Assembly: GCA_003164715.1 (NCBI GenBank)
Contig: PLTZ01000013.1
Coordinates: forward strand, 1 to 64,000
Source of the DNA: Opitutaceae bacterium
GTDB lineage: Bacteria > Verrucomicrobiota > Verrucomicrobiia > Opitutales > Opitutaceae
DNA length: 64,000 bases
Direction of reading: 5' to 3'
Below are positions 2,283 through 18,554 of the stretch, one piece after another. A program made the position numbers and the translations under genes. Position 1 is the stretch's first letter; each line of letters begins with the position of its first letter. The notes under the pieces were generated by a model. The model was not told the DNA's origin, did no database searches, and saw only the letters and a program-made list of their open reading frames with translations.

Positions 2283-2449
2283 GGTCGAAGGGCAGCAGGA
2301 GGGATGGGCCGGAACCGGCGCACGAGAGGTCGTGGCCTTCGTTCGGCTCCGGTCTTGTGTGACGCACCCGGGGCCAAAAGGGTTTGCGGAATATTGATTT
2401 TTTTCCCTGCTGCGTTCGGTGGTTTTGCGGGAGACCCGCTAAGGATTGC

Positions 2450-2459
2450 GGGGGGGGGG
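2450..2459. repeat. Run of ten G in a divergent intergenic region
   Basis: A perfect mononucleotide run of ten G lies between the divergent methyltransferase and GT2 genes, about 100 bases upstream of the GT2 start. A seven-T run (2398-2404) lies nearby. The rest of the 279-base spacer (2283-2561) shows no promoter pair I would defend. Poly-G tracts in upstream regions can vary in length by slippage and alter promoter spacing, but nothing in this single sequence shows variation. Confidence 0.6.
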
Positions 2460-2561
2460 CGCCATCAGCGGGGTCGGGGCCCAGGAGCTGAGAATTTTTG
2501 GATAAATCGTCAGGCGCGGAAACCTTTCCGGCACCTGATCGTCTCCCAAGGACGATTCATC

Positions 2562-4512: not shown

Positions 4513-4899
4513 ATGTCTCAGGCGAACCCCGTTCCGCCCCCGTCTGCAGCACCCGATCGAGACCCCAGGGGGAAACTGGGCCGTCTTCCTGCGGCTGCCC
4601 TTCGCAGCTATGACGAGTTCATGCAAACGGGAAGCGAGCAGGCGCTCGGAGTGCTTGTCGTCGAGGTGCTTAAATACTTCCTGGCGAAGAAGCTGGACCA
4701 GAAGGGCGAGGTCCGCTGGGTGGATAATGTGCGGCTGCTCGAGGAGCTGGGGTTCGATTCGCTGGCCACCATCGAGACGGTGTTCTTCTTCGAGGACCTT
4801 TTCCAGATTTCGGTCTCGAATGATGAAATCGCGAAGGTGAAAACCCTGGGGGATCTCCGGCGCTTCGTGCGGGACAAGCTCGAGTCTGCCAAAGCCTGA
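4513..4899 (+). CDS. Acyl carrier protein 1
   Basis: A 128-residue protein with a roughly 40-residue polar N-terminal extension before a standard four-helix acyl carrier domain. The phosphopantetheine attachment site is Ser83 in GFDSL. I used ATG 4513; a TTG at 4501 would add four residues. First gene of the plus-strand biosynthetic run, and its stop is one base from the ketosynthase start, so the two are translationally linked. It probably carries the growing aryl or acyl chain. The longer N-terminus separates it from the housekeeping fatty-acid ACP (usually about 80 residues). Confidence 0.88.
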   Translation: MSQANPVPPPSAAPDRDPRGKLGRLPAAALRSYDEFMQTGSEQALGVLVVEVLKYFLAKKLDQKGEVRWVDNVRLLEELGFDSLATIETVFFFEDLFQISVSNDEIAKVKTLGDLRRFVRDKLESAKA

Positions 4900-4900
4900 C

Positions 4901-6163
4901 ATGCCGCGGGCGGTCATCACGGGTATCGGGTTCATCACGAGCATCGGCAACAGCCGCACCGACGTCCTGCGCAGCCTGCGGGAGCTGCGCCACGGCTTCA
5001 AGACGGTTGAATTCCTCGGCAATCCTCGGATCCCCGTGCGCGTGGTGGGCGCGGTGGAGGGCTTCGAGACGGATTCCACCAACTGGCGCGACTGGCGCTA
5101 CCCCGAGCGCTACCGCTTCGGGCCGGAGGCGCTCCGGTCGGTTTCGCCGCACGGGCTCTATGCGCTGTGCGCCTGCGAGCAGGCTCTCGAGGACGCCCGC
5201 CTAGGCGCCGGAGACCTGGCGGACGGGGAGACCGGGCTCTTCTGCGCCTCGGCTGGCTCGCCCTTCCTCTTCTACCATTACCTGCGCCAGCAGGAGGAGG
5301 CGAGGGGGGAGCGCGGCAGCCCGATGGGGATGGTCTCGAGCATTGCGGGGACGCTGAACTTCAACCTCGCGGCGCACTACCACATCAGGGGCGCGGTCTG
5401 CGGGTTTGTCTCGGCCTGCGCGTCGTCGAGCCACGCGCTGGGCTACGCGATCGACGAGATCAGGCTCGGCCGCCAGAGGCGGGTGCTGGTTGTCGGCGCC
5501 GAGGAGACGCATGCCGAGACCGTGCTTCCGTTCGCGGCCATGAGGGCGCTCTCGGTCAATCCGGACCCCGGCTCGGCCTCCCGGCCCTTCGACCGGAGGA
5601 GGGACGGGTTTGTGAGCTCGGGCGGGGCCGCCGTCATGGTCGTGGAAGAGGCGGGCCTGGCCGCGGAGCGGGGAGCCCCCGTGTACGCCGAGCTCGCCGG
5701 TTGGGGCCAGGCCGGCGACGGGCACAATGTTGCGCTGTCACACCCCGAGGGCTCCGGGCTGGCGCAGGCCATGAGGCGCGCCCTCAGGGACGCGGCGACG
5801 CCCCCCGACGGGATCGACTACGTGAACGCCCACGCGACCTCGACGCCGGTGGGGGACCGCTCCGAGGCGGCCGCGCTCAAGGCGGTGTTCTGCGCGGGCG
5901 GCAGGCCCGCCATCAGCAGCACCAAGGCGCTCACCGGGCATGCGCTTTCCATGGCCGGCGTTCTGGAGGCCGCGATCTGCGCCCTGGCCGTAAGGGACGG
6001 CTTTGTCCCGGGCTGCGCCCACCTGGTGGAGCCGGATCCCGCCTGCGACGGCCTGCGCCTGCCGCTTGAGACCGTCGAGGCTCGGCCGCGGGCGGTCCTC
6101 AACAACAGCAGCGGCTTCGGAGGCAGCAACGTCTGCCATGTCCTCAAGCCCTTTCCCGCGTGA
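4901..6163 (+). CDS. Beta-ketoacyl-ACP synthase 1 (FabF-like)
   Basis: 420 residues, a full-length ketosynthase. The catalytic triad is intact: Cys173 in SACASSS, His311 in NAHATSTPVGD and His347 in TKALTGHALS. It catalyses decarboxylative condensation of malonyl-ACP with an acyl (or aroyl) thioester. The position directly after ACP 1 and before ACP 2 and a second ketosynthase matches the organisation of aryl-polyene loci, where dedicated FabF-type enzymes do the iterative elongation. Start ATG 4901 follows the ACP stop by one base. Ordinary fatty-acid FabF is less likely given the surrounding genes. Confidence 0.9.
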   Translation: MPRAVITGIGFITSIGNSRTDVLRSLRELRHGFKTVEFLGNPRIPVRVVGAVEGFETDSTNWRDWRYPERYRFGPEALRSVSPHGLYALCACEQALEDARLGAGDLADGETGLFCASAGSPFLFYHYLRQQEEARGERGSPMGMVSSIAGTLNFNLAAHYHIRGAVCGFVSACASSSHALGYAIDEIRLGRQRRVLVVGAEETHAETVLPFAAMRALSVNPDPGSASRPFDRRRDGFVSSGGAAVMVVEEAGLAAERGAPVYAELAGWGQAGDGHNVALSHPEGSGLAQAMRRALRDAATPPDGIDYVNAHATSTPVGDRSEAAALKAVFCAGGRPAISSTKALTGHALSMAGVLEAAICALAVRDGFVPGCAHLVEPDPACDGLRLPLETVEARPRAVLNNSSGFGGSNVCHVLKPFPA

Positions 6164-6213
6164 TCAGCACTTGCCCGGGACGGTCCCGTCGGGAATGATC
6201 CGTTGCTCCGAGC

Positions 6214-6492
6214 ATGCCCGACCCCCTGAACGCCCGCATCAAGACGATGATCGTCCAAACCCTTCGTTTGGAGGACATTGACCCTGCATCGATCAAGGAC
6301 GACGAACCGCTGATCGGGACGGGCCTTTCGATCGACTCGATCGACGCCCTCGAGCTCGTCGTGGCGCTCGAGAAGGAATACGGGATCAAGATCAAGAGCA
6401 GCGAGGAGTCGATGGTTGCGCTCTCGAGCGTCTCGGGGCTTGTGGCCTTCATCCGCCAGAAGGCGGATCCCTCCCGCCTGCCGCCGGCCTGA
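6214..6492 (+). CDS. Acyl carrier protein 2
   Basis: 92 residues, a standard-length acyl carrier protein. The attachment serine is Ser42 in LSIDSIDALE, followed by the acidic helix II that docks partner enzymes. It differs clearly from ACP 1 in length and in the DSID rather than DSLA motif, so the cluster keeps two distinct carriers. One may hold the starter and the other the extending chain, as proposed for aryl-polyene systems; that split is inference. The 50-base gap before it is one of the larger spaces in the run. Confidence 0.88.
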   Translation: MPDPLNARIKTMIVQTLRLEDIDPASIKDDEPLIGTGLSIDSIDALELVVALEKEYGIKIKSSEESMVALSSVSGLVAFIRQKADPSRLPPA

Positions 6493-6497
6493 CCGGT

Positions 6498-7640
6498 GTG
6501 TCGGACAGCGCCGCGCCGAAGTCCACCCCTTCCCCAATGGCCTTCTGCCCGGTCCAACTCGGCGCCCACGGATGCCTCACGGCGCTAGGGGACGCGGCGC
6601 AGACGCACGCCGCGCTCCTGCGAGGCGAGAGGGCTCTGTCCCTGGTGCCGGTCCACGGGAGCGCGGGAGGCGACCCGGTGCCGCTCGCCCTCCTGCCCGG
6701 GCGCAGCCTCGACGAGACGAGCCCGCCCTCGTGGCTCCCCGACGTGAAGCGGCTGATGCGCGGCTGCCCGGAAGCGCCCTGGGGCGGCGCGAGGCATCCG
6801 GTGTTCGTGACCAGCAGCAATTTCGGGGTGGGCAACCTGTACGAGTTCCGCCGCACCGCGCTCGCGTCCCACCTCGGCTACGGCACGCCCGAGGCCTGCG
6901 TCGGGTTCATCGGCCGGGAGCTCGGATGGGGGGGCAACGTTTCCATCGTCTCGCATGCCTGCGTTTCCGCGAACGTGGGCCTCGTTTTGGCGGCGCGCCA
7001 GGTCGCCTCGGGGCTCGCCGACCAAGCCCTCGTGTTCACCTTCGATTTCCTGAGCCCGTTCGTCGCCGGCGGGTTTCACGCCCTGAAGATCCTGAACTCG
7101 GAGTTCCCGGCGCCCTACCAGGCGCGGGCCACCGGCTCCATCGGCCTCGGGGACGGGGCGGCATTTGCCGTGTTGCGCAGACCCGGGACGGGCTGGATCA
7201 TCGCGGGCCAGACGCTGCACAACGAGATGCATCACTTCACGGCCTTTCCCCCCGACGGCGCCGGATTCATTGCGTGCATCGAGCCACTCGTGCGCCTGGC
7301 CTCGGGCAGGCGCCTCTGGATCAAGGGGCACGGCACGGGCACGCTTGATTCGGGCAGGCTTGAGGCCGAGGCGTTCGGCAGGGTAATGCCGTCCTGCCCG
7401 CTTGTCGGGTGGAAGGGAAGCATCGGCCACACGCTCGGCAGCAACGGCCTGGTGGAGCTCGCCGTTGCGGTGGAGTCGCTGCGCTCGGGACGGATTCCGG
7501 GGACGGTGGGCAGCGCAGCGCCGGCGTTCTCGGAGACGGTCGCCTTGGAACCGATCACCGACGGGTCGTTCGACGGGGTCCTTTGCGCGAGCAACGCCTT
7601 CGGCGGGGCGCATGCGGCCCTCCTCCTCTGCCATGCTTGA
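6498..7640 (+). CDS. Beta-ketoacyl synthase 2, divergent
   Basis: 380 residues from the GTG at 6498; an ATG at 6537 would remove 13 residues and still leave the whole fold, so the start is uncertain. It is a divergent thiolase-fold ketosynthase. The nucleophile region is SHACVSANVG (Cys155), with His278 in KGHGTGTLDS and His311 in GSIGHTLGSNG, so the Cys-His-His triad is formally intact even though flanking residues differ from FabF. It may pair with ketosynthase 1, or with the following factor, as a heterodimer. The last eight bases overlap the next gene, which indicates coupled translation. Confidence 0.83.
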   Translation: MSDSAAPKSTPSPMAFCPVQLGAHGCLTALGDAAQTHAALLRGERALSLVPVHGSAGGDPVPLALLPGRSLDETSPPSWLPDVKRLMRGCPEAPWGGARHPVFVTSSNFGVGNLYEFRRTALASHLGYGTPEACVGFIGRELGWGGNVSIVSHACVSANVGLVLAARQVASGLADQALVFTFDFLSPFVAGGFHALKILNSEFPAPYQARATGSIGLGDGAAFAVLRRPGTGWIIAGQTLHNEMHHFTAFPPDGAGFIACIEPLVRLASGRRLWIKGHGTGTLDSGRLEAEAFGRVMPSCPLVGWKGSIGHTLGSNGLVELAVAVESLRSGRIPGTVGSAAPAFSETVALEPITDGSFDGVLCASNAFGGAHAALLLCHA

Positions 7641-8313
7641 GGGTTACGTCAGCTACGTGGGCACCGACGATGCGGGCGGGGAGGACCCCGCCGCCACGCG
7701 TGCCCGGCTGCGGGCAGGACTCTCGCCGGGCTTCAGCCGCCGGGCCACCGTCCTCGGGCTCCTGATCGGCGGCGTCCTGCGCGGCGTGATGGAGCAGTGC
7801 GGCGGCACGACCGTCTACGCCTCGGCCTATGGCGAGACCCGCACCCTGGCGGACTTCCTCGACACGTTCCCGCACGAGAGCCCCACGCTTTTCCAGACTT
7901 CCATCCACCCGAGCGCGGTGCAGCAGGTCATGATCGAGCGAAAGCTGCCCATCCGGGAATACGTTCCCTTTGCCGGGGGCCCCTGCCTTGCGGCACGGGC
8001 CCTTTTGGCCGCGCTCCTTTCCCCCTGCGACCCGGTGGTGTTCTGTGGGGGCGAGGAGCGCGGGAGCTGGATGGCCGACATCGGCGTGGCGAGCGACAGG
8101 AGCTTCGCCTTCGCCCTTGCCCTAAGGAAGAGTCGGGACGCTTCGACGCTGGCCCGCCTGCGCCTGGAGCCGGCCGACGGGGACCCGGAGGCGCGGACCG
8201 GGAGCGCCCCGGGCGGGATGGCGTTCCCCGCCTGGTTCGACCTGCTGCACTCCCGCCGGAACTTCAACGGGACCGTGTCGGCCGAATGGCGGCTCGGATT
8301 GGAGTGGACGTGA
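7633..8313 (+). CDS. Ketosynthase-like chain-length factor
   Basis: 226 residues starting at the ATG inside the end of the preceding ketosynthase gene. The sequence resembles the short beta-ketoacyl synthase-like proteins (Ketoacyl-synt_2 type) found in aryl-polyene clusters: a TSIHPSA segment where an active enzyme would have its scaffold region, and FAGG plus an alanine-rich helix, but no recognisable Cys-His-His triad. Such proteins are thought to partner an active ketosynthase and influence chain length. The assignment rests on remembered family features and on position, so the function is probable rather than shown. Confidence 0.65.
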   Translation: MLEGYVSYVGTDDAGGEDPAATRARLRAGLSPGFSRRATVLGLLIGGVLRGVMEQCGGTTVYASAYGETRTLADFLDTFPHESPTLFQTSIHPSAVQQVMIERKLPIREYVPFAGGPCLAARALLAALLSPCDPVVFCGGEERGSWMADIGVASDRSFAFALALRKSRDASTLARLRLEPADGDPEARTGSAPGGMAFPAWFDLLHSRRNFNGTVSAEWRLGLEWT

Positions 8314-9245
8314 CCACGCCGGAAACACGCGTCGCGGACGGCCCAAGGAACCCCGGCCCCGACTGGGGCTACGGCTTCCTCCTCGGGTGCGACCGCCTGC
8401 TGCCGGAGGGGCTCTTCAGGCCGCTTCGGGCGGCGGGCACGTGGGTCGCGCTCGCCTTCATGCACGCGCAGCGCCGCCATTCGCGGGAGTACCTCGCGCT
8501 CGTCCTGCCGGAAGCGCCCACGCTCCGGGACGTGTTCCGGCATTTCTTCGCCTGCGAGGAGGCCCTGATGGCGAAGCTCCGTGTGGCCAACGGCCTCGAC
8601 ATCCCGTGCGAGTTCGACCCCAGCGCGGCGGCCTTCGAGGCGTGGCTCGCCGGCGGCGGCCCGTTCCTTCTGGGCACCTTCCACATCGGCGCATCCGACA
8701 TGCTCGGCTTCCAGATCGGCTGCCACGAGAAACGCCGCGTCTACCTGGTGAGGCGCCGCGTCGGCAATTCCGGCGACACCGAGCGCCTGTCCAGGATCAG
8801 CGGCGGCTGCGTCCGGTTCATCTGGGGCAACGAGGCTTCGGAGCTGGTCTTCGGGCTGAAGGCGGCCGCGGACACCGGTGACGCCATCGCCCTGCAGTGC
8901 GACCGGATCGAGAACGCCCGCCAGATGGAGGATTTCGAGTTCCTCGGTGCGCGCCGGAGCTTCCCGACCACCATCTACCGCCTCGCGCGGGTGCTCGGGC
9001 GCCCGGTGATCCTCACGGTCGGCGTCCCGCTGCCCGGCGGCCGCTCGCGCCTTTACGGGACGCCCCTGTTTGGTCTGGTGGCCGGGGAAGGCCGGGACGC
9101 GATGCGGGCCCGGGCTCGCGAGCACTTTCAGGGGTTCCTGCGGATGGTTGAGGGGCTGCTGCGCGAGCGGCCGTACCTCTGGTTCAACTTCATCCCGCTC
9201 AATCCGGCGGCCGGGGCCGGGGCGGGCGTCGCGACCGACCCATGA
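8310..9245 (+). CDS. LpxL/HtrB-type lysophospholipid acyltransferase
   Basis: 311 residues from GTG 8310, which overlaps the preceding stop by four bases (GTGA) and has GGAG (8301-8304) five bases upstream. An ATG at 8286 is possible and would add eight residues. The acyltransferase motif H-x4-D is present as HIGASD near residue 131, in the context GTFHIGAS; a later Arg/Asp patch, CDRIENA, is typical of the lipid A acyltransferase superfamily. In aryl-polyene loci a member of this superfamily joins the polyene to a lipid. Here it could place the cluster's acyl chain on a glycerol or sugar headgroup at the inner membrane. Confidence 0.82.
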   Translation: MTTPETRVADGPRNPGPDWGYGFLLGCDRLLPEGLFRPLRAAGTWVALAFMHAQRRHSREYLALVLPEAPTLRDVFRHFFACEEALMAKLRVANGLDIPCEFDPSAAAFEAWLAGGGPFLLGTFHIGASDMLGFQIGCHEKRRVYLVRRRVGNSGDTERLSRISGGCVRFIWGNEASELVFGLKAAADTGDAIALQCDRIENARQMEDFEFLGARRSFPTTIYRLARVLGRPVILTVGVPLPGGRSRLYGTPLFGLVAGEGRDAMRARAREHFQGFLRMVEGLLRERPYLWFNFIPLNPAAGAGAGVATDP

Positions 9246-9982
9246 CGACCAGGATCGCCAGGGCCTTCTACAGGGCGCGCTACTACCTGTCCTGGTTCTT
9301 GTTTGCCACGGTAGCCCTGGTGCTCAGCGCCGCCTGCGTCCCCCTGCTGCTCATCCCGGGCAGCCCCCGCGCCGGGGCGCTGGTCCGCAGCACGATCCGC
9401 CGCCTCTTCCGATTCTGGGGATGGTGGCTCGACTGGAGCGGCGTGGTGCGCATCGGCTGGCTCGGATTCGACCGGCCGCTCACGCCGGGCACGGTCTACG
9501 TCGCCAACCATCCGACGCTCGTGGACGCGACCGTCATCCTCTCCAGGCTGCCGGACGCAATCTGCGTCATGAAGCCTTCGCTGATGAGGAACCCCTTCAC
9601 GGGTCCCGCGGCCATCGCTGCGGGCTATGTCGTCTTCGGGAAGACGGTGGACGGGGTGCGCGACGCCGCGGCCAAGGTGGCCGCCGGCAAGTCGCTCCTC
9701 ATCTTCCCGGAGGGGACGCGCACCCCCGAGGGGGCGGTCCTTGGGCCGATGGCGCACGGCTTCCTCATTAGCGCGGAGCGGGCCCGCGCCCCGGTCGAGC
9801 TGATCGTCGTCAGGGCGTCCCCGGGCTTGGGGCGCAAGGGCAGGCCCTGGTGGCGGCTTCCGGACGTGATTCCCGCATCGATCACCGTGACCCAGGACCG
9901 GCGCTGGGAGTGGGACGGCCGGCGCTCGAGCGCCGAACTGCTGGTTGAGCTGGAAGGCCGGTTGAAGGCCGTGCTCGATTGA
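9242..9982 (+). CDS. PlsC-type 1-acylglycerol-3-phosphate acyltransferase
   Basis: 246 residues with one strong N-terminal membrane segment (about residues 15-38) and the PlsC motifs NHPTLVD (His90, Asp95) and FPEGTRT (about 156-162). Family members transfer an acyl group from acyl-ACP or acyl-CoA to lysophosphatidic acid or a similar acceptor. It overlaps the preceding acyltransferase by four bases, so the cluster encodes two unrelated acyltransferases in tandem. That fits attachment of two acyl chains, or of one special and one ordinary chain, to a lipid backbone. The exact acceptor is unknown. Confidence 0.87.
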   Translation: MTTRIARAFYRARYYLSWFLFATVALVLSAACVPLLLIPGSPRAGALVRSTIRRLFRFWGWWLDWSGVVRIGWLGFDRPLTPGTVYVANHPTLVDATVILSRLPDAICVMKPSLMRNPFTGPAAIAAGYVVFGKTVDGVRDAAAKVAAGKSLLIFPEGTRTPEGAVLGPMAHGFLISAERARAPVELIVVRASPGLGRKGRPWWRLPDVIPASITVTQDRRWEWDGRRSSAELLVELEGRLKAVLD

Positions 9983-9984
9983 CC

Positions 9985-10752
9985 ATGGCGGACCCGGACT
10001 CCACGCACGTCGTCATCATCCCGAGCTACAACCCCGGGTGGCGCCTCGCGCAGACCGTCCGGGAGGCGCTGGGCGCCTGGAGCCCGGTGTGGGTGGTTTC
10101 CGACGGGAGCACCGACGGGAGCGACCGGGCCCTTGCGGGGGAGCGCGCGGAGGGCGGGGCGCTGCGCGTCCTCATGCGCCCGGGGAACGGCGGGAAGGGC
10201 GCCGCCGTCCTGACGGCCGCGGAGGAGGCCCTTCGGGCGGGATTCACCCACGGCCTCGTGATGGATGCGGACGGCCAGCATCCGGCCGACCGGATCGCGG
10301 ACTTCATGAGGGCCTCCAGGGAGGCGCCCGACGCGATGATCCTCGGGCGGCCGGTGTTCGGGCCCGAGGCTCCGTGGATCCGCCTGAACGGGCGCAAGCT
10401 GAGCATCGCGCTGGTGACCCTCGAGCTCCTTGGACGGTCGGTCGGGGATCCGCTGTTTGGATTCCGGGTGTACCCGCTTGCCCCCCTCGCGCGGGTCCTG
10501 CGCTCGACGCGGGGCGCGCGCCGCTTCGACTTCGATCACGAGGTCGCGGTTCGCTTGACGTGGGCCGGCGTCCCCGCGTTGAATCTGGCCTCCAGCTGCC
10601 GTTATCTTTCGCGTGCCGAGGGAGGGGTGTCCCACTTTCACTACTTGTCCGCCAACACCCGCATGGCATGGATGCACATCCGACTGATCACCGAGCTCCT
10701 CCTCTATCGGTGGCCGGCGGCGCTCCGGGCCCGGCGAAGGCGCCTGCGATGA
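9985..10752 (+). CDS. Family 2 glycosyltransferase (dolichol-phosphate-mannose-synthase-like)
   Basis: 255 residues from ATG 9985, two bases past the previous stop. GT-A motifs: IIPSYNPG near the start, VVSDGSTDGS, GNGGKGAAV and the divalent-metal site MDADGQHP. The later GDPLFGFRVYP and FDFDHE segments are typical of polyprenyl-phosphate glycosyltransferase-like enzymes. A GT2 of this type is a regular member of aryl-polyene loci, where it is proposed to add a sugar to the lipid headgroup. It overlaps the LolA-like gene by four bases (ATGA). Conserved gene order supports a common pathway; the sugar donor is unknown. Confidence 0.85.
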   Translation: MADPDSTHVVIIPSYNPGWRLAQTVREALGAWSPVWVVSDGSTDGSDRALAGERAEGGALRVLMRPGNGGKGAAVLTAAEEALRAGFTHGLVMDADGQHPADRIADFMRASREAPDAMILGRPVFGPEAPWIRLNGRKLSIALVTLELLGRSVGDPLFGFRVYPLAPLARVLRSTRGARRFDFDHEVAVRLTWAGVPALNLASSCRYLSRAEGGVSHFHYLSANTRMAWMHIRLITELLLYRWPAALRARRRRLR

Positions 10753-11420
10753 CCCGCGCAGCCCCTCGATGCGTGCTGGCCCTCTCCCTCGGGCTGGCGG
10801 CCCTGTGCGGGGCGCCCCCGCCGGACGCCCCGTTCCCGGAGAAGCCGGGACCCGAGCTCCCGGCCGCGGGCGCGGACGCGGGCTTCCGCGAACTCTTCCG
10901 GTCGCTGGCATCCCGGGGGTCGGTGCTTGCGAACTTCACGGAATACCGGTGGTTCCCGTTCCGCACCGCTCCAGTCGTCCTTGACGGCGAGATGCGCTTC
11001 TCAAAGGAGCTCGGCCTGAGCCTCCACTACCTGAGACCCGAGGAGCGGATGGTGATCGCCGACGCCGGCGGCCTTGTCCTCAGGGACGCATCGGGGCGCT
11101 CCCGCGCGATCCGGCCCGACGACCGCACGCCCGACATCGGCGGGACGCTGCTGCCGATCCTGCGGTTCGACGAGGGCGAGCTTTTCCGGGTCTTCCATGT
11201 AAGCGGGGCGCGCTCCGGGGGCGCCTGGCGCATCGACTTTGTCCCCCGGTCGGCCGAGCTCGCGCGGTGGGTCGGCACGGTCACGGTGGAGGGGACCGGC
11301 GACACCTTGTCGCGGATCGAGATTCACCGGTCGTCCACGCAGCGAATCGAGATCAGGGTCGGGGCGCCCGCGCCGGGGGTCACGTTCGGGGCCGCCGACC
11401 GCAAGCGCTACTTCCGCTGA
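10749..11420 (+). CDS. LolA-like periplasmic lipid carrier
   Basis: 223 residues with an N-terminal export signal (charged start, hydrophobic stretch to about residue 21) and no convincing lipobox. The mature part begins with a FRELFRSLASRGS... helix and continues as beta-rich sequence, matching LolA-like proteins that pair with MMPL exporters in aryl-polyene clusters rather than the housekeeping lipoprotein carrier LolA. Expected role: accept the finished lipid from the inner-membrane exporter encoded next and carry it across the periplasm. ATG 10749 overlaps the glycosyltransferase stop by four bases, and the MMPL gene starts eight bases after its own stop. Confidence 0.75.
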   Translation: MTRAAPRCVLALSLGLAALCGAPPPDAPFPEKPGPELPAAGADAGFRELFRSLASRGSVLANFTEYRWFPFRTAPVVLDGEMRFSKELGLSLHYLRPEERMVIADAGGLVLRDASGRSRAIRPDDRTPDIGGTLLPILRFDEGELFRVFHVSGARSGGAWRIDFVPRSAELARWVGTVTVEGTGDTLSRIEIHRSSTQRIEIRVGAPAPGVTFGAADRKRYFR

Positions 11421-11428
11421 ACCTGGAC

Positions 11429-13795
11429 ATGGCGCCGCACCACCAGAAACGCGCCGCGCGGCTTGTCCTCACCGCCGCATGCGCAGCCGCCCTCGGGATC
11501 CTCTGGCTGCGGGACGCGCCGCGGCACGTCTCAACTGACGTGATGGACCTGGTCCCGAGCTCCGAGAGCTCGCCGGAGCTGGCGCTCATCCGGAGCCTGG
11601 CGGGCGACCGCCAATCGCGGGTGGTCATGGTCGCCCTCTACCCGAAGGACGCAACGCAGTCCAAGGACGGCGCCCGCCTGGCCAAGGCCCGCGACGCGGT
11701 GCTCGCCTCGCTGCGGGGCTCCGGGGCCTTTGAGGATACGGTCGAGCTCACCGGCGGGTCCTACCGGGAGACGCTGGGAAGGCTCGTCTTCGACCGCCGG
11801 TTCGACCTTCTAGGTCCGGCGTGGCTCGCCGAGCGTTGGGGGGAGCACGAGAAGGAGGCGCCCGAGGCCCCGTGGGGCCCCTGGCTCGCGGAAAGGACCG
11901 CGGCCCGCCTCGAGGCGTTCCTGTACCGGCCCGAGGCCCTCGGCTTCCAGGACCTGATGCACGCGGACCCGCTGCTCTTGGTCCCCGGCGCGGCCGACCG
12001 CCTGCAGGGATTCACCGGCGCGGCGGACGGGTCGTCCCCCGGCGTCCTCATCTGGGCGCTCCTTCGCTCCTCCGCGCTCGAGACGGACGGGCAGGTGGCG
12101 GCCTCCTCGGCCCTCGCTCGGGCGCAGCTCGAGCTGTCGGCCGCGGACCCGGGGATAGCCCTTCGCTGGTCGGGCGTCGTCCGGCTGGCGGCGGAGAGCC
12201 GCCGGCGCATCGAGGGCGAGTTCTCGCGGCTGAACCTCCTCTCCCTCGCGGCCGTGCTGGCCGTCGTCCTCGCCTGCGTCCGCAGGCCCGTTCGCGCGCT
12301 CCTCCTCGTCCCGGTCGTCGTGTTCTCGGTGCTCGGGGCCTGGACGGCCGTGATCGCAGCCTTCGACCGCGTCCACGTGGTGGTCTTCGTCGTAGGCTCG
12401 CTTCTCTGCGGGGTGGCCATCGACTACGGCCTGTACATCTTCCTGCAGGCGCCGGCGCGGCCGGGCGAGCCCTATGCCGAGAAGGTGGGGCGCCTCATGA
12501 AGCCGCTCCTTGCGAGCTCGCTCACGGTGGTGCTCGGCTTCTCGATGCTCCTCGGGTCGGACCTTCCGCTGGTCCGCCAGGTCGGGGTCTTTGTCGGCGC
12601 GGGCCTCCTGACGGCGCTCGGGTCGGCGATCCTCTGGTTCGCCCAGGTCGACGATCCCTTCCTCGAGACGCGGCGCTTCGCCCGCGCCCGGCCCGAGTCC
12701 CCGGCCGTCCGGGGGGCGGCCCGGGCGGTCCTTCTCGTGGCCGCGGTCGTCGCCCTCGCGGGACCGTGGCGGCTCACGTGGCGGGATGACGTGCGCGACC
12801 TGCAGGTTCCGTCGCCGGACCTCGAGGCGAACGACGGGGACCTGCGGAGCCGCTTCGGCGACAGGGCGGACCGGATGGTCTACCTGACGCAGGGCGCGAC
12901 GCCGACCGAGGCGCGGGAATCCCTCGAGCGGTTCCTGGCGTGGCACAGCCGGGCCTTTCCGGAAGCCGGCGTCCTCTCGTTTGGCGCGCTGCTGCCCTCG
13001 CCCGCGCAGTGGGCTGCGCTGCCCGCGAGGCTCGCCGGCCTGGACGGGTTCGGGGCCGACCTGGGGGCGGCCCTGGCCCGCCACGGATTTGACCGGTCGG
13101 CGTTCGCCTCGTTCGGCGACGAGTGGGAGCGCTGGCGGGGCGGCCGCGGGAACGCGGGGTACGACGCCTTTGTCGTGAGCCTCGGGGCGTCGCTCAAGGG
13201 ACCGGTGGCCCTGACCCTGGCCTCCCACGGGGGCGCGTGCTGGTTTGTCACGCTCTCGGACCATCCCGCGGGTGCGGAACCGCCGGCCGACACGCGCACC
13301 TTCAGCTCGCGCGAGCTTGAGAACCTGAACGGGCTCTTCGGGCGCTACCGGATGTCGGCGCTTCGCCTGAGCACGCTCGGTCTCGGGATCATCGGGCTCA
13401 GCGTCTTTGCGATCTATGGCTGGCGCCGCGGGTTCGGGATCTTTGCGGTGCCGTGCGGTTCATGCCTGTTCGCCTTCGGCCTGTTCGGGCTCCTCGGGCA
13501 CCCGCTCAACCTCTTTCACCTTCTGGGCGCGTTCCTGGGGGTGTGCCTGGCCCACAACTACGCGATCTTCACCTGGGAGAGCGCGGCCCGCGGCGAGACG
13601 CCTCCCCCCTCCATCCGCATCTCGGCGTCATGCGCGGCCGCGTCGTTCGGCGTCCTCGCGCTGAGCGGCATACCGGTGGTGGCGGCGCTCGGATCGATGG
13701 TCGCCGTCATCATCCTGACGGCGCTTGCGGCGGTGGAACTGGGGCCCCTGGCAGACCGGCATGCCGGGCTTGCCGTACGCCCGAAGGTGGATTAA
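11429..13795 (+). CDS. MMPL/RND-family lipid exporter
   Basis: 788 residues with the RND/MMPL layout. There is one N-terminal membrane segment, a periplasmic domain (about residues 35-265), a bundle of five membrane segments including GVAIDYGLYIF, a second periplasmic domain (about 435-620) and a final bundle with LAHNYAIFTWE. The acidic residue in the first bundle (AIDYG) is the type used for proton coupling in the family; the second copy has HNYA instead. Such exporters move hydrophobic lipids out of the inner membrane using the proton gradient. The LolA-like neighbour and the acyltransferases point to delivery of the cluster product to the outer membrane. Confidence 0.87.
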   Translation: MAPHHQKRAARLVLTAACAAALGILWLRDAPRHVSTDVMDLVPSSESSPELALIRSLAGDRQSRVVMVALYPKDATQSKDGARLAKARDAVLASLRGSGAFEDTVELTGGSYRETLGRLVFDRRFDLLGPAWLAERWGEHEKEAPEAPWGPWLAERTAARLEAFLYRPEALGFQDLMHADPLLLVPGAADRLQGFTGAADGSSPGVLIWALLRSSALETDGQVAASSALARAQLELSAADPGIALRWSGVVRLAAESRRRIEGEFSRLNLLSLAAVLAVVLACVRRPVRALLLVPVVVFSVLGAWTAVIAAFDRVHVVVFVVGSLLCGVAIDYGLYIFLQAPARPGEPYAEKVGRLMKPLLASSLTVVLGFSMLLGSDLPLVRQVGVFVGAGLLTALGSAILWFAQVDDPFLETRRFARARPESPAVRGAARAVLLVAAVVALAGPWRLTWRDDVRDLQVPSPDLEANDGDLRSRFGDRADRMVYLTQGATPTEARESLERFLAWHSRAFPEAGVLSFGALLPSPAQWAALPARLAGLDGFGADLGAALARHGFDRSAFASFGDEWERWRGGRGNAGYDAFVVSLGASLKGPVALTLASHGGACWFVTLSDHPAGAEPPADTRTFSSRELENLNGLFGRYRMSALRLSTLGLGIIGLSVFAIYGWRRGFGIFAVPCGSCLFAFGLFGLLGHPLNLFHLLGAFLGVCLAHNYAIFTWESAARGETPPPSIRISASCAAASFGVLALSGIPVVAALGSMVAVIILTALAAVELGPLADRHAGLAVRPKVD

Positions 13796-13829
13796 TTACC
13801 GCCGGTCCAGATCCGGCAGATACCCACCG

Positions 13830-15269
13830 ATGGAACCCAACACGCCCCCCCTTGCCCGCGGCCGGATCCTGCTCGCGAACCTGAACGGCTACGACCAGCC
13901 GTATCCCGTCTATCCGCTTGGGCTGGCCTACCTCGAGGGCGGCCTCAGGGCGGCCGGCTATGAGGCCAGGATATGGGACGCCCATGTCTCGGAGCAGACG
14001 CTCGAGACCTGCGTGGCCTCGTTTGAGCCCGCGTATATCGCGCTGTCGCTGCGCAATGTCGACAACGTCCAGTACCACAACCCGCGCTCCTTTGTCCGGG
14101 AGCTCCTGGAGACCTGCAAGCGGCTGCGCGCGGCGACGCACGCCAGGCTCGTCCTCGGGGGCAGCGGGTTTTCCGTCTTTCCGAAGGAGCTCTTCGCGCT
14201 GGCTGACGTGGACTACGGCGTCCAGGGGGAGGGGGAGGTCGCCCTGGTCCAGCTGCTCCAGGAGATCGAGTCCGGGGGCGACTTTGCGGGCGTCTCCGGG
14301 CTCGTTTACCGGGACGCCTCGGGCGCGGTCCGGATGAACGCCTGCATCGCCCGCGACACGGCCTTCAGCACCGAGCCGTCGCACGATGCGCAGCTCCTGC
14401 GCGCCTACGCCGCGCGGGGATCGCTGCCGGGCGTGCAGACGCAGCGGGGGTGCCCGCTGCGCTGTTGCTACTGCACCTACCCGCTGATCGAGGGCAAGCG
14501 CAGCCGCTACCGGACCGGCGAGGACATCGTGAAGGAGATGAGGATCCTGCTCTCGATGGGCACGAACTTCACGTTCATCGTCGATTCCGTCTTCAACACG
14601 CGGGCGGACCATGTGGTGCAGGTCTGCACGGCGCTCGTGGAGGCGAAGCTGGACATGGAGTGGCAGTGCTTCCTGAGGCCGCGCAACGTCACGCGCGAGC
14701 TCCTCCAGCTCATGCACCGCGCGGGGCTGCGCCACATCGAGTTCGGCTCGGACAGCTTCTCGGACCCGGTGCTCAAGCGGTACGGCAAGAGCTTCACGTG
14801 GGAGGAGATCCGGCAGTGCAGCGCCTACGCCCACGAGCTCGGCATCAAGTACAGCCACTTCCTCATCTTCGGGGGCCCGGGGGAGACGCCGGAGTCGGTC
14901 GAGGAGACCCTCGTCAACGCGCAGTCCCTGCCGGGGGCGTTCTATTTCGCGACGATCGGGATGCGGATCTACCCCGGCACGCCGCTCTGGGGCGAGCTGG
15001 CGCCCGAGAAACGCGGCGAGACCGCCGCGGACTACGTGGTCGACCCGCGCTTTTTCCTGGAGCCGCCCTTCACGGTCGGCGGCCTCTACGGGAGGCTGAG
15101 ACAGCACAGGAACGACTGCCACAACTGGGTGGTCGGCGACCCGCCGCCCGAATTCCTGGAGACGATAAGCAAGCTCCGCAAGCGGGGGGTCCGCGGGCCC
15201 ATGTGGGAATACATCGAGACCCTGCAGCGCTTCGGCAGCAAGGGCGTAGAGGAGCTGCAGGAAGTGTGA
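13830..15269 (+). CDS. B12-binding-type radical SAM enzyme of lipid cluster
   Basis: 479 residues. The N-terminal 150 residues look like the cobalamin-binding domain common in class B radical SAM enzymes (VYPLGLAYLEGGL, then VLGGSGFS and VQGEGE), although the DxHxxG loop is only partly recognisable (WDAHVSE). The radical SAM domain has a CxxxCxxC cluster motif at Cys208, Cys212 and Cys215 and the FGGPGET segment typical of the second half of the barrel. From memory, close relatives are annotated as lipid-biosynthesis B12-binding/radical SAM proteins because of ladderane loci in anammox bacteria. The reaction is unknown; methylation, cyclisation or C-C bond formation on the acyl chain are all possible. 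ATG 13830 follows the exporter by 34 bases. Confidence 0.85.
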   Translation: MEPNTPPLARGRILLANLNGYDQPYPVYPLGLAYLEGGLRAAGYEARIWDAHVSEQTLETCVASFEPAYIALSLRNVDNVQYHNPRSFVRELLETCKRLRAATHARLVLGGSGFSVFPKELFALADVDYGVQGEGEVALVQLLQEIESGGDFAGVSGLVYRDASGAVRMNACIARDTAFSTEPSHDAQLLRAYAARGSLPGVQTQRGCPLRCCYCTYPLIEGKRSRYRTGEDIVKEMRILLSMGTNFTFIVDSVFNTRADHVVQVCTALVEAKLDMEWQCFLRPRNVTRELLQLMHRAGLRHIEFGSDSFSDPVLKRYGKSFTWEEIRQCSAYAHELGIKYSHFLIFGGPGETPESVEETLVNAQSLPGAFYFATIGMRIYPGTPLWGELAPEKRGETAADYVVDPRFFLEPPFTVGGLYGRLRQHRNDCHNWVVGDPPPEFLETISKLRKRGVRGPMWEYIETLQRFGSKGVEELQEV

Positions 15270-15329
15270 CCCGCTCGCGATGGCCCCGCCGATGAGAACG
15301 GTGCATGCCCCGGGGTCCGCTGCGTGCGC

Positions 15330-16643
15330 ATGCCGGAAACCCTGACCAGCCTCTGGCGGCGGACGGTCTCCCGGGCGCCTCGGGCCCTCGCAGTCGCCGA
15401 GAGCTCCGGCGCGCGCCGGTACTCGAGGGAGGAACTCGAGGCCGCCGCGGGCTTGTGGCTTTCCGGCGTGGCTTGCGTCCCGGATCTTCGCGGGCGGCGC
15501 ATCGTGATGGCGGAGCCGAACGGTCTTGAATGGCTGCGGGTGTTCCTCGGGATCGTCTCGGCGGGCGCCGTGGCCGCACCCGTCGATCCGGCCGAGCCCC
15601 CGGACGCGCGGGAGGCGATCGCGCGCTCGATCGGCGCGTCGTGGATATGGGAGGGCGGCCGCCTGCGGCTCATACGAAAACGCAGGCCCTCCCCCAGGCG
15701 GGACCTCTGCCTCCTGAAGGTGACGAGTGGCAGCACCGGTGTGCCGAAGGCCTATGCGTTCACCCACGCCCAGATGATCGCCGACGGCCGCCAGGTCTGC
15801 GCGACGATGGGCATCCGGGAGAGCGACCTCAACTTGGCGGTGGTCCCGTTCGGCCACTCCTACGGCCTTGGCAACCTGGTCGTCCCGCTCCTGGTCCAGG
15901 GCACCGCGGCCGTCTGCGGCCAGGCCCCGTTTCCCCAGGCGATCGCGTCGGACTGCCGGACGTGGAGGCCGACCGTCCTGCCCGCGGTCCCCATCCTCCT
16001 GCGGGCGCTCGTGGGCGCCGAATTCCCCGAGGTCTCCCTGAAGAGCCTGCGGTTGGTGATCTCGGCGGGCTCCCCGCTCCCGGCGGCGGTTGCCCAGGCG
16101 TTCTCGTCGCGGTTCGGCCGGAAGATTCACGGGTTCTACGGATCCTCCGAGACCGGCGGGATCAGCTACGATCGGTCCGGCGAGGCCACGCAGAGCGGCC
16201 GCAGCGTGGGCACTGCGCTTAAGGGGGTCTGCATCGTTCCCCTGCGCGGCCGAAGGTTCTCGGTCGCGAGCCCGGCCGTCATGGGGCGGGGCCGCCACAG
16301 CCCGCGCGACTACGGGACCCTGTCGCCCTCGGGAGAGCTCGTGCTCCTCGGGCGCTCCGACCGCTCGGTGAAGATCGGGGCGAAGCGGCTGGACCCCGCG
16401 GAGGTCGAGCTGGCCCTCAGGGCGCTTGAGTCGGTGCGGGACGCCGTCGTGTTCCCGTACCCCAGGGGGGGCGAAGGTCTGGCCGCGGCCGTCCTCTCCG
16501 ACGGGAGTGCGGCGGCGATCCGGCGCGCGCTCGCCGGGCGCATCGCCGCCTGGAAGCTTCCCGACCGGATCATGGTGCTCCGGGAGTTCCCGGTGACTGC
16601 CCGGGGGAAGCCTGACATCAGGAAGATCGAGTCGTCGCTTTGA
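15330..16643 (+). CDS. AMP-dependent acyl/aryl acid ligase
   Basis: 437 residues of the adenylate-forming family, shorter than typical acyl-CoA synthetases. The phosphate-binding motif TSGSTGVPKA is at about 136-145, the YGSSETGG motif near 270, and the C-terminal catalytic lysine is in ARGKPDIRK. The start is ATG 15330; an in-frame GTG lies at 15324. In aryl-polyene/xanthomonadin loci a ligase of this type activates the aromatic starter acid and loads it on the carrier protein. The chorismatase encoded 0.7 kb away would supply a hydroxybenzoate, so this enzyme is the likely link. Activation of an ordinary fatty acid is the alternative. Confidence 0.85.
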   Translation: MPETLTSLWRRTVSRAPRALAVAESSGARRYSREELEAAAGLWLSGVACVPDLRGRRIVMAEPNGLEWLRVFLGIVSAGAVAAPVDPAEPPDAREAIARSIGASWIWEGGRLRLIRKRRPSPRRDLCLLKVTSGSTGVPKAYAFTHAQMIADGRQVCATMGIRESDLNLAVVPFGHSYGLGNLVVPLLVQGTAAVCGQAPFPQAIASDCRTWRPTVLPAVPILLRALVGAEFPEVSLKSLRLVISAGSPLPAAVAQAFSSRFGRKIHGFYGSSETGGISYDRSGEATQSGRSVGTALKGVCIVPLRGRRFSVASPAVMGRGRHSPRDYGTLSPSGELVLLGRSDRSVKIGAKRLDPAEVELALRALESVRDAVVFPYPRGGEGLAAAVLSDGSAAAIRRALAGRIAAWKLPDRIMVLREFPVTARGKPDIRKIESSL

Positions 16644-16692
16644 GGCGGAGGCGGGGCAGGGATCTTCGGACCTCGCGTCCGCTGCGTGCGTC

Positions 16693-17346
16693 CTACTGAC
16701 TGGTCACCGCGGGCACCGCATAGACCTCGATGAGCGCGACTCCGGTGTCCCCGCTCCGGCCCCCTACCTCGACCGTGTAGGACCCCGGGGGCAGCGTGAT
16801 GAGGATTGCCGCGTCGGAGCCTGAGGGATTGCTCCACGAGAACGCGCCCACGGCCGCCGCAGCATTCGTGATCAGGGGGTTGCCTCCCCAGCCAAGACTC
16901 GAGGCGACCAGGTTCATGTTGCCGTCGAAGAGCTGGAGCTGCGGGTCCGCCAGCAAATTGGGCACACCGAAGGGGGTGAGCGTAGGCCTTGCGGCCCGGA
17001 TGAGAACCGTCTGCGAAGTAGATCCCTCGATCACGAATCCGGCGATCAAGACATTGCTGCCGGTCCCGACGAATGCGCGCGTGGAGATGTTGACGAGCTG
17101 CGCACTCGGTGTGCCGGTATCCGCGTCGTAGATCTCGGCGAGCGCGACGCCTGTCCCGGTCGCAGAACCGGCAATCGGGTCGACGACGGCCCCTGTTATC
17201 TGGGAAGTGTAATTTCCCACGGGCAGCACGATCTTCATCGCTGAGTCGTTGGATCCGGCGGTGAGCCCAAAGGCGCCTACCTGGAAAAAATCAGCCGCAG
17301 TCGCGTCGCTGGGAGCGCTCCGGCGCCGGGTCCGCTCACCCGGCAC
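16693..17346 (-). pseudogene. C-terminal fragment of a repetitive surface protein
   Basis: 217 codons from a GTG that overlaps the chorismatase end by 11 bases. The sequence is one and a half copies of a beta-rich repeat with a recurring GTGVAL(A/I)E(I/V)Y ending, and a full copy running from LVNIST through VLIRAARPTLTPFGV to VGGRSGDTG. These repeats are familiar from large exported proteins of Verrucomicrobiota. There is no signal peptide and the first repeat starts in its middle, so this reads as the 3' remnant of a larger gene whose front has been lost. It sits between the convergent ligase and chorismatase genes, and may mark an old rearrangement. An intact small protein cannot be excluded. 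Confidence 0.6.
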
Positions 17347-18193
17347 GGACGCCGCGCAGCGTCACCTCGATCTCGATGTTCAGCTCGGCGCGGCAGATGT
17401 CCGCCTTCGCCACGCTCACTAGGTCGCCGGTCCCGAAGAGGCGGCCTTCGAGCGCGGGCAGGATCCATGACTTATCCTCCGGGCGCCGGAGGTAGACCGA
17501 GAATTGCCTGAAGGCGGCGCGCCCGCCCCCAAGGTTCGGCCCGAGGCCGCACGCGCCCGAGACGGCCGCCAGGTTCTCGAGCGTGCACTCGAGCTGCGCC
17601 CGTGTATCGTTGGGCGCGACCGTATCGGAGCCCACCACGGCGGACGTCCCGGAGACGAAGATGTCCGTCTCGCCGTCGAATGAGACCCGCGTGGCCCGGG
17701 AAAAGCTCGGCGGCCTCGGGCCGTACTCCGGGGGATAATCGTACGCGGGCACCTGCCGCGGGTTCTCAACGTGGGTCGCCTCCCGCGACGCGGCAACGAA
17801 CCAGACGACGACGTTGTCGCCGCCGGCCCCGACTGCGGATGCGGCGGGCAGCCGGCGCCTGAAGTCCGGGCCGAAGCGTGCTTCGAACTCGAGGGAACGG
17901 GCCTTGGAGAACGCCTGGTACCGCTCCAGCCCGGAGTCCGTGCGCCCGTTGATGTCGGGAATGAAGTTCCAGATGCGGCAAAGGTGCATCCCCTCGGCCG
18001 CCAGGAGGAGGTCTTGGTAAATCCGCTGCACGGCCTGCGCCAATACGGCCTTTCCGGGAACCGACGCAACCCCGACCCTCCAGCGATTGGATTCCTGGAG
18101 CTCAAACAGCCCGGAACTCCCGGCGGGAACCACCTCAGGGAAGGCCGCATCCGGCCTGAAACGCTCTGGAGGGGAAAGGCCTGGGCGAGCCAT
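17336..18193 (-). CDS. Chorismatase (FkbO/Hyg5/XanB2 family)
   Basis: 285 residues from ATG 18193; the open frame runs 40 codons further up but the family-like sequence begins after this ATG. Features seen: LCRIWNFIPDIN at about residues 111-122, then ENPRQV, AYDYPPEYGPRPPSFSRA, FVSGTSAVVGS and a C-terminal ADICRAELNIEIEV. These are hallmarks of the chorismatase family, often annotated as pteridine-dependent deoxygenase, which includes FkbO and XanB2. XanB2 converts chorismate to 3- and 4-hydroxybenzoate plus pyruvate, giving the aromatic starter for xanthomonadin. Placement beside an AMP ligase, ACPs and ketosynthases supports the same role here. Which hydroxybenzoate (or dihydrodiol) is made cannot be read by eye. 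Confidence 0.85.
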   Translation of the reverse strand: MARPGLSPPERFRPDAAFPEVVPAGSSGLFELQESNRWRVGVASVPGKAVLAQAVQRIYQDLLLAAEGMHLCRIWNFIPDINGRTDSGLERYQAFSKARSLEFEARFGPDFRRRLPAASAVGAGGDNVVVWFVAASREATHVENPRQVPAYDYPPEYGPRPPSFSRATRVSFDGETDIFVSGTSAVVGSDTVAPNDTRAQLECTLENLAAVSGACGLGPNLGGGRAAFRQFSVYLRRPEDKSWILPALEGRLFGTGDLVSVAKADICRAELNIEIEVTLRGVRAG

Positions 18194-18554
18194 GCAGCCT
18201 ACCCGCAAACGCTCCTGGAGAGCTGTTCGGTTCGTTGAATCGGGGTCGTGAGGCAATTCATCATCGGGGGTTGCGGGAAGGCGCAGACAATACCCAACAG
18301 GGGGCGCGCGCAAGGGCGGAAGCCGCTGGACCCATGCGGGGCCTCTCTACATCGGCGGACGGGAACGCCACAGCGTCGGGCCTTTCCACGGGGCGCCAGC
18401 CCACGGCGAATCCGCCCAGGAGCCGCGAGATCCTCGAGCGCGTGTCCCCGAGAAGGCAGTTCCCGGGGCTCCCTCATAAAATCCGGCGGCCTCCGGATCC
18501 ACGAGGCGTACGGGCCCAACGACCCGGAGGACGTCGGGAAATCCTAAGGCAAGC
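18194..18554. other. Intergenic region without recognised gene
   Basis: A 361-base stretch between the chorismatase start and the end of the EF-G gene, both on the minus strand. Short open frames exist on both strands, but they have no recognisable domain, start signal or composition that would mark a gene. It presumably holds the chorismatase promoter. I see no convincing -35/-10 pair. Confidence 0.5.

Follow-up and report, generated by a model that had tools for sequence, protein, structure and literature searches.

The aryl-polyene (APE) operon of Escherichia coli CFT073 (apeA-R) and the xanthomonadin-type loci of Xanthomonas, Lysobacter and Azoarcus (arcuflavin) are among the described systems closest to the locus analyzed here. 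Xanthomonadin-type loci contain a chorismatase of XanB2 type, an AMP ligase, a ketosynthase (KS) with a half-size chain-length-factor (CLF)-like protein, an acyl carrier protein (ACP), an acyltransferase, a glycosyltransferase, LolA, an exporter and a deacetylase, counterparts of which recur in the window (the whole 64-kb stretch of DNA that was analyzed), its chorismatase being a candidate member of the XanB2 type, and some also contain a halogenase (PMC3691225; PMC3949708). In the arcuflavin locus, ArcN is annotated as a PS-deacetylase (PMC3949708). Unlike the window, these loci encode a ketoreductase (KR) and one or two dehydratases (DH), while the window encodes a B12-binding radical SAM enzyme (rSAM) that does not appear in them as described in the accessible parts of the two reports (PMC3691225; PMC3949708).

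The locus, from an Opitutaceae-like genome (Verrucomicrobiota), comprises thirteen intact open genes at 4513-18313, twelve of which overlap or are closely spaced on the plus strand, with a chorismatase gene facing them. This agrees with a first-pass annotation that had described a compact, overlapping gene run, all named genes of which are present and open.

3675-4460, minus strand: polysaccharide deacetylase, possibly cluster-associated (PF01522; homologue in 14/66 stretches)
4513-4899, plus strand: ACP1, acyl carrier protein in the ApeF position, a weak likeness (PF00550 21.2 bits, cut-off 20.8; Ser87 conserved; HMM versus ApeF 18.4 bits)
4901-6163, plus strand: KS1, FabF-type ketosynthase, ApeR-like (C173/H311/H347; HMM versus ApeR 228.5 bits, versus ApeO 127.6)
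6214-6492, plus strand: ACP2, ApeE-like acyl carrier protein (HMM versus ApeE 87.9 bits; PRK09184 64.3 bits, cut-off 70)
6498-7640, plus strand: KS2, ApeO-like elongating ketosynthase (HMM versus ApeO 99.8 bits; C155, H278, H311)
7633-8313, plus strand: CLF, half chain-length factor of ApeC / Lysobacter ORF16 type, 226 aa (fold 6qsp_B; HMM versus ApeC 26.6 bits)
8310-9245, plus strand: LpxL-type acyltransferase, equivalent to the ApeJ C-terminal half (HMM versus ApeJ residues 260-547, 70.3 bits; HX4D, H124 and D129, conserved)
9242-9982, plus strand: PlsC-type acyltransferase, ApeD-like (PF01553; HMM versus ApeD 168.6 bits; HX4D, H90 and D95, conserved)
9979-10752, plus strand: GT2 glycosyltransferase, equivalent to the ApeJ N-terminal half (PF00535; HMM versus ApeJ residues 8-234, 234.1 bits)
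10749-11420, plus strand: LolA-like carrier, ApeL-like (HMM versus ApeL 75.2 bits)
11429-13795, plus strand: MMPL/RND exporter, ApeM-like (PF03176; HMM versus ApeM 275.6 bits)
13830-15269, plus strand: B12-binding radical SAM enzyme, TIGR04072-related, proposed C-methylase (PF02310 and PF04055; TIGR04072 354.6 bits; CX3CX2C; TsrM fold)
15324-16643, plus strand: AMP ligase, ApeH-like aryl-ACP ligase (PF00501; HMM versus ApeH 69.3 bits)
17336-18313, minus strand: chorismatase, Hyg5/XanB2-like, putative hydroxybenzoate supply, start codon unsure (PF21168 67.2 bits, cut-off 27; TIGR04444 165.7 bits, cut-off 325; best PDB match 5ag3)

We consider this likely to be a xanthomonadin-like aryl-polyene lipid locus equipped with a B12-rSAM tailoring enzyme. 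Using profiles built from orthologues, eleven window proteins matched Ape proteins of E. coli, with counterparts of ApeC, D, E, H, J, L, M, O and R, as well as F (weak); ApeA, B, G, I, K, N, P and Q had no counterpart in the window by the same comparison. These one-to-one matches bear out the APE-like character proposed in the first-pass annotation, together with its glycosyltransferase-containing machinery for an exported lipid, the APE anchor and export set (counterparts of ApeD, ApeJ, ApeL and ApeM) being complete. Its view that a PlsC-type enzyme beside an LpxL-type enzyme does not fit an APE locus is not supported: the PlsC-type protein corresponds to ApeD, and in ApeJ a GT2 (residues 8-234) is fused to an LpxL-type acyltransferase (residues 260-547). 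Relative to the E. coli operon, the window adds the chorismatase, separate genes for the GT2 and LpxL-type proteins, and the rSAM. For the CLF-like, LpxL-like and LolA-like proteins, which had no Pfam or NCBIfam match, identification came from profiles or folds. Part of the kinship between KS1 and ApeR is general, with another FabF-type KS of the same genome scoring 153.8 bits against ApeR.

In the pathway that we propose, the chorismatase would convert chorismate to 3-hydroxybenzoate (3-HBA), and perhaps to 4-hydroxybenzoate too. The protein lies above the PF21168 cut-off and below that of TIGR04444, contains VSGT and CR...E motifs and has Hyg5-like residues at most tested positions. Three class residues are reported to characterize 3-HBA-forming chorismatases (PMC7170507), of which two are retained in an alignment read by eye, with Ala at the equivalent of Gly164 and the catalytic Glu retained. 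The AMP ligase would then load 3-HBA onto an ACP, an activity predicted from the presence of an APE-type aryl-ACP ligase and an ApeE-type ACP.

Iterative malonyl extension would follow, carried out by KS1 (ApeR-like) and KS2/CLF (ApeO/ApeC-like), the latter an APE-type pair identified by profiles, residues and fold. Because KS2 retains Cys155, His278 and His311, residues present in 95% or more of 57 sequences, it is a catalytic KS, and this intact triad rules it out as the chain-length factor. That role belongs, judging from its structural model (pLDDT 85.5), to the 226-aa protein, for which the best PDB fold is ApeC (6qsp_B, E 2.5e-9). The aryl polyene would be joined to a glyco- or glycerolipid anchor by the PlsC-type, LpxL-type and GT2 proteins and transported to the outer membrane by the LolA-like and MMPL proteins.

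Of 33 same-family stretches, 24 contain ten or more of the 12 core genes and 15 contain the full 12, where stretches were chosen for KS2 or rSAM matches, some end at contig ends and the rSAM is outside the core set. Because so many stretches hold at least 10 core genes, the gene set is not a chance assembly. Given its homologues, the polysaccharide deacetylase may also be a cluster member. Neither the region 627-3581, with its methyltransferase and GT2, nor a 217-aa protein at 16693-17346 was accepted as part of the cluster: among the best matches per place, none of these proteins appears in any of the 66 stretches. One KS2 orthologue, in a genome (G025) that we take to be strain ASA1, lies at 5422681-5423799, within the region 5402678-5443805 that antiSMASH labels arylpolyene (PMC10927696).

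Profiles for KR and both APE dehydratases (ApeI- and ApeP-type) had no match anywhere in the 64-kb window, confirming the absence of reductive enzymes claimed earlier. Among 34 same-family stretches, the two dehydratases were found in none, and two stray SDR genes (L071, L176) were the only KR/DH-type matches. Stretches from sister families carry ApeI-type DH in 20/27 cases, ApeP-type in 18/27 and KR in 1/27 (L183). Since DH is common there and found in 0/34 stretches here, dehydratase loss appears to be family-wide, and since KR is missing in sister families too, its supply in trans seems to be the rule in the order. By gene content, the locus is an APE-type variant without its own reduction genes, and reduction is presumably supplied in trans, with FabG performing ketoreduction and FabZ or an ACP-dehydratase fusion performing dehydration. 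Since the locus itself encodes neither KR nor DH, the polyene is a predicted product.

These absences would also suit a different product, in which KS and CLF working without KR or DH yield a short aryl-polyketide lipid that is unreduced or reduced in part, such as one with a pyrone- or resorcinol-like head, and no polyene. Aromatic polyketides are made by minimal type II systems lacking KR. We regard this outcome as unlikely, however, given that KS2 and CLF resemble ApeO and ApeC, that KR is usually missing in the order, and that the ancestor was probably reducing because sister-family stretches carry ApeI- and ApeP-type DH. In addition, the ASA1 cluster (L081) likewise has no KR or DH match, yet ASA1 colonies are described as whitish-yellow and somewhat yellower over time, although the color is not APE-specific (PMC12193912).

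Several candidate sources of the predicted reduction were considered. The single ApeI-type match elsewhere in the same genome (27.4 bits) fell below the cut-off of 28.5. The C30 locus (L090), which encodes an ACP-dehydratase fusion, an SDR and a KS 55% identical to KS1, is a possible donor of DH activity. It was not accepted as a second locus dedicated to APE, because its fusion is matched in 48/57 relatives (sometimes as separate halves) against 23/57 for KS2, and because its SDR scores 30.5 bits against ApeQ, less than the 179.0 bits of FabG against ApeQ. The genome encodes three FabA-fold dehydratases. The rSAM itself was dismissed as a substitute for reduction: among 32 same-family clusters, 25 have no linked rSAM and equally lack KR and DH. 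Furthermore, in an APE-type set from Bacteroidales (L030), an rSAM homologue (34% identity) accompanies matches for KR and TE and two of DH type, one of them weak, so the rSAM need not replace reduction.

The rSAM had been singled out as foreign to a standard APE locus and indeed matches none of the 18 E. coli Ape proteins. It combines B12-binding and radical SAM domains, with a CX3CX2C motif that is invariant in 24/24 aligned rows, and its TIGR04072 (rSAM_ladder_B12) score lies below the curated cut-off of 360; other matches in the order scored 341-406 bits, with one at 645.5, some above and some below 360. The next best families were BzaD (159.8 bits), which we take to be a methylase, and TsrM (131.3 bits), which is also the best PDB fold (Z 38.1 versus 29.1 for the next protein). 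Both are B12-dependent, act on aromatic rings and have the same domain order as the window enzyme, although the kinship to TsrM is distant (26% identity). TsrM Arg69 corresponds to the invariant R75. Glu273, which is reported to block radical SAM chemistry in TsrM (PMC8992657), corresponds to Val254, and because of this replacement a 5'-deoxyadenosyl radical would be possible for the window enzyme. B12-rSAM enzymes as a group also carry out non-methyl chemistry.

The most likely role for the enzyme would be C-methylation of the aryl head or chain, in a place that E. coli fills with ApeB and that sister clusters may fill with UbiE-type methyltransferase or halogenase-like genes. More tentatively, an open cobalamin face like that of TsrM together with a normal radical-SAM iron site might permit radical C-methylation, or other C-C bond formation, of the aryl polyene while it is bound to an ACP or anchored to a lipid. 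The result would be a branched or otherwise new APE lipid, with all ketoreduction and dehydration borrowed from enzymes elsewhere. Undescribed chemistry, as suggested in the first-pass annotation, is plausible at the rSAM step alone.

Across 372 genomes of the order, the rSAM was found in 16 (E 1e-70) and KS2 in 54 (E 1e-50), with both in 15 (Fisher p 6e-13, kinship ignored). Because 39 of the 54 cluster-bearing genomes lack it, the rSAM appears to be an optional tailoring enzyme. It could conceivably be a mere passenger in the operon, given that it lies away from the cluster in three genomes (G005, G008, G025) and is absent or unresolved beside it in five (G081, G150, G161, G176, G177), but this is very improbable in light of its invariant motif and of two pooled searches, in which 20 of 21 rSAM genomes also had a KS2 match and 13 of 21 had the rSAM in or beside the cluster. 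Rows with a linked rSAM do not group into a single clade: the tree shows 7 changes, of which at least 3 are forced, and the row nearest to the window enzyme (G005) is unlinked.

Close halogenase-like (HALO1-3) or UbiE-type genes were found in 0/7 same-family clusters with a linked rSAM versus 17/25 others, a contrast that was defined post hoc, omits two 37% FAD-protein matches beside the rSAM (G014, G347), counts one 42% match (L174), leaves out a HALO5-only stretch (L179) and includes some truncated stretches. Strict mutual exclusion was rejected: G005, G008 and G025 hold both an unlinked rSAM and halogenase- or methyltransferase-type genes, and clusters from other families (L017, L024, L163) also have both kinds.

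Rather than methylating, the rSAM might cyclize, rearrange or desaturate the polyene by radical, ladderane-like chemistry. TIGR04072 is named for ladderane-type lipid clusters, the Val at the TsrM Glu273 position would make a 5'-deoxyadenosyl radical possible, and in Kuenenia clusters, where ligase, glycosyltransferase and deacetylase-like proteins are also encoded, a B12-rSAM has been proposed as cyclase (PMC2649909). We nevertheless find this improbable, as the nearest characterized relatives are C-methylases (TsrM by score and fold, BzaD presumably), other accessory genes near such clusters are methyltransferase- or halogenase-like, and ladderane synthesis is itself described as unproven (PMC2649909).

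B12-rSAM tailoring of aryl-polyene, flexirubin or TIGR04072 clusters was not found in the literature searched, in which one survey, in the part available, names radical SAM/B12 domains in gene clusters in general. If the aryl-polyene reading with a tailoring rSAM is true, the B12-rSAM family would gain a tractable substrate class, and an APE-type locus that has retained no reductive genes throughout a bacterial family would make the division of labor between primary fatty-acid and pigment synthesis directly testable.

The label 'ladderane-like' given by the first-pass annotation rests on the name of the rSAM family and is not borne out by comparison with known clusters. Kuenenia ladderane-type clusters are marked by phytoene-desaturase-like genes, with several SAM enzymes and FASII genes (PMC2649909), whereas the window cluster has one rSAM and no phytoene-desaturase-like gene. 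Such genes exist elsewhere in the window's genome (L092). TIGR04072 lipid clusters share with the window the family rSAM beside KS, ACP, GT2, LpxL-type and MMPL matches. Outside the order but within Verrucomicrobiota, most listed TIGR04072 matches score 442-621 bits and three score 269-275, compared with 354.6 for the window enzyme. The 16 stretches taken from around such genes include a TE match in 12, a DH-type match in 11 and a chorismatase in none, unlike the window, and at least three APE-type profile matches were found in 14 of the 16.

Gene calls, family searches and start-codon reading bore out the cluster genes, order and tight spacing proposed in the first-pass annotation. Catalytic residues are kept in both ketosynthases (KS1, C173/H311/H347; KS2, C155/H278/H311), as are serines 87 and 42 of the acyl carrier proteins (ACP1 and ACP2, respectively), the HX4D motif of both acyltransferases (PlsC and LpxL-type) and CX3CX2C in the B12-binding radical SAM protein (rSAM). 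The genome comprises 3.79 Mb in 92 contigs, G+C across the window is 0.63-0.74 (2-kb windows) and a tRNA search of the 64 kb found none. ASA1, an isolate with an orthologous cluster, belongs to the same family under the genome taxonomy used here and is filed under Alterococcaceae in the relevant part of PMC12193912. Individual genes discussed below or adjoining the cluster are:

13830-15269 (+): rSAM, TIGR04072-related
16693-17346: 217-aa protein between ligase and chorismatase, with weak likeness to the DVUA0089 family (21.1 bits versus a cut-off of 29) and no counterpart listed in relatives' stretches
18570-20666: EF-G-family protein adjoining the chorismatase
20901-21515: PagL-like lipid A deacylase, close to the cluster

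We built per-gene profiles from orthologues in 66 stretches of other genomes and searched them against the 18 Ape proteins of the E. coli CFT073 aryl polyene (APE) operon with Z fixed at 5000, taking gene functions from excerpts of PMC8253772.

Table. Matches of orthologue profiles to E. coli Ape proteins (CLF, chain-length-factor-like protein; AMPL, AMP ligase).
KS1: ApeR, 228.5 bits
KS2: ApeO, 99.8 bits
CLF: ApeC, 26.6 bits
ACP2: ApeE, 87.9 bits
ACP1: ApeF, 18.4 bits
PlsC: ApeD, 168.6 bits
GT2: ApeJ, 234.6 bits
LpxL: ApeJ, 70.9 bits
LolA: ApeL, 75.2 bits
MMPL: ApeM, 275.6 bits
AMPL: ApeH, 69.3 bits

GT2 and LpxL each matched a different half of ApeJ, and rSAM, the chorismatase and the deacetylase had no counterpart among the 18 proteins. 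KS1 alone scored 141.8 bits to ApeR, compared with 153.8 bits for another ketosynthase of the same genome; this kinship is in part that of FabF proteins generally. For the CLF model (pLDDT 85.5), the best solved fold was 6qsp_B, ApeC of the ApeO:ApeC complex (E = 2.5e-9). Gene content makes a strong case for APE identity. Because the family is partly defined by ketoreductase (KR) and dehydratase (DH) genes, which were searched for and not found, we class the cluster as a variant of APE type and not as an ordinary family member.

Profile searches of the 64-kb window returned no KR, ApeI-type DH or ApeP-type DH. ApeI-type DH was matched in 20 of 27 stretches from other families of the order versus 0 of 34 from the window's family (including the window's first 24 kb), and ApeP-type DH in 18/27 versus 0/34; some stretches end at contig ends, and detection is favoured in the other families, since the profiles were seeded with E. 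coli proteins (for ApeP, also a Bacteroidales protein) plus hits from those same stretches. With PlsC and GT2 overlapping, and MMPL to rSAM within 35 bases and rSAM to the ligase within 55, there is no space for a further gene at either place in the window. KR was matched in 3 of 61 stretches (L071, L176 and L183). The genome itself holds three FabA-fold matches (one in a 480-aa frame, presumably LpxC-FabZ, one ACP-fused on contig C30 and one on C62) and eleven SDR matches, one above the FabG cut-off, so these activities could possibly be supplied in trans.

The C62 match lies in a second lipid locus (L092, 3424-9545), with a ketosynthase, two phytoene-desaturase-like proteins and an enoyl-reductase-type SDR, reminiscent of Kuenenia/Desulfotalea fatty-acid clusters. 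The C30 locus (L090, 15343-19787) encodes the ACP-dehydratase fusion, matched in 48/57 relatives, a ketosynthase 55% identical to KS1, an SDR and a sub-threshold MGDG-synthase-like glycosyltransferase; it appears to be an uncharacterised lipid locus that almost all members of the order share.

The rSAM protein scored 354.6 bits against TIGR04072, slightly below the cut-off of 360; the four named loci among the matches listed were three Opitutaceae MAGs and one Bacteroidales, which marks the window as coming from an Opitutaceae-like member of the Verrucomicrobiota. At E 1e-70 the rSAM gene occurred in 11 of 57 genomes (own included), each of which also had KS2; KS2 itself was present in 23 (E 1e-30). 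Across 372 order genomes, rSAM was found in 16, KS2 in 54 (E 1e-50) and both in 15, G150 alone carrying rSAM without KS2 (Fisher p = 7e-6 and 6e-13 for the two overlapping sets, kinship ignored). The union held 21 rSAM genomes, 13 with the gene in or beside the cluster and 8 unlinked or unresolved; linkage in G014, G022, G090 and G169, with KS2 on another contig, was judged by adjoining cluster genes. The gene lies 3' of MMPL in the window's family and next to ACP1-KS1 in others, and linked copies do not form one clade in the tree, which points to rSAM having repeatedly joined or left the cluster. In the phylum at large, 33/288 genomes carried rSAM, and 14 of 16 fetched non-order loci (28 such genomes; counted by hand) had at least three adjoining APE-type matches, although KS, ACP and KR profiles also pick up ordinary fatty-acid genes. 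The Bacteroidales rSAM (L030; 34% identical) sits within a fuller APE-type set with KR and TE hits and two DH-type matches, one weak. Higher-scoring TIGR04072 genes of other Verrucomicrobiota families (L202, on G169:C54, and L223-L236) mostly belong to an APE-like cluster that recurs there and gives TE, DH, KS, GT2 and MMPL matches; they scored 314-447 bits against our rSAM profile (524 for L202, itself in the profile).

The rSAM model (pLDDT 90.1) best matched TsrM (Foldseek E = 5e-36; Z 38.1, with 449 residues aligned at an rmsd of 2.0), followed by AprD4 (Z 29.1). Within TsrM, Arg69 keeps the lower face of cobalamin free and Glu273 blocks the unique iron, according to the relevant part of PMC8992657. 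In a profile alignment with positions counted by eye, these residues correspond to invariant R75 and to V254 of rSAM, from which we infer that the B12 site resembles that of TsrM and that the radical SAM site is usable. BzaD is an aromatic-ring methylase. Within the window's family, a close halogenase-like or UbiE-type neighbour occurred in 0/7 clusters with linked rSAM versus 17/25 without (p = 0.002; grouping chosen post hoc, kinship ignored; 2/7 if two 37% FAD hits are counted), which would fit, weakly, one tailoring slot shared by these genes. A second, distinct B12-rSAM protein occupies the halogenase-like gene's usual place in L019, L022 and L080, whose genomes also carry the first.

The window chorismatase exceeds the Pfam cut-off and falls below that of NCBIfam (165.7 versus 325 bits). 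It shares VSGT and CR...E motifs with 5ag3, whereas FkbO has ISAT and AR...E instead. We take 5ag3 to be Hyg5. That assignment fits Glu334 of 5ag3 and the class-residue spacing given for Nat-hyg5 in excerpts of PMC7170507; of the three class residues described there, the window protein keeps two, with one Gly replaced by Ala. As far as the available parts of PMC3691225 and PMC3949708 describe them, the xanthomonadin-type loci of Lysobacter and Azoarcus between them share with the window the same chorismatase type and half-size CLF, together with a ligase, LolA, glycosyltransferase, exporter and deacetylase.
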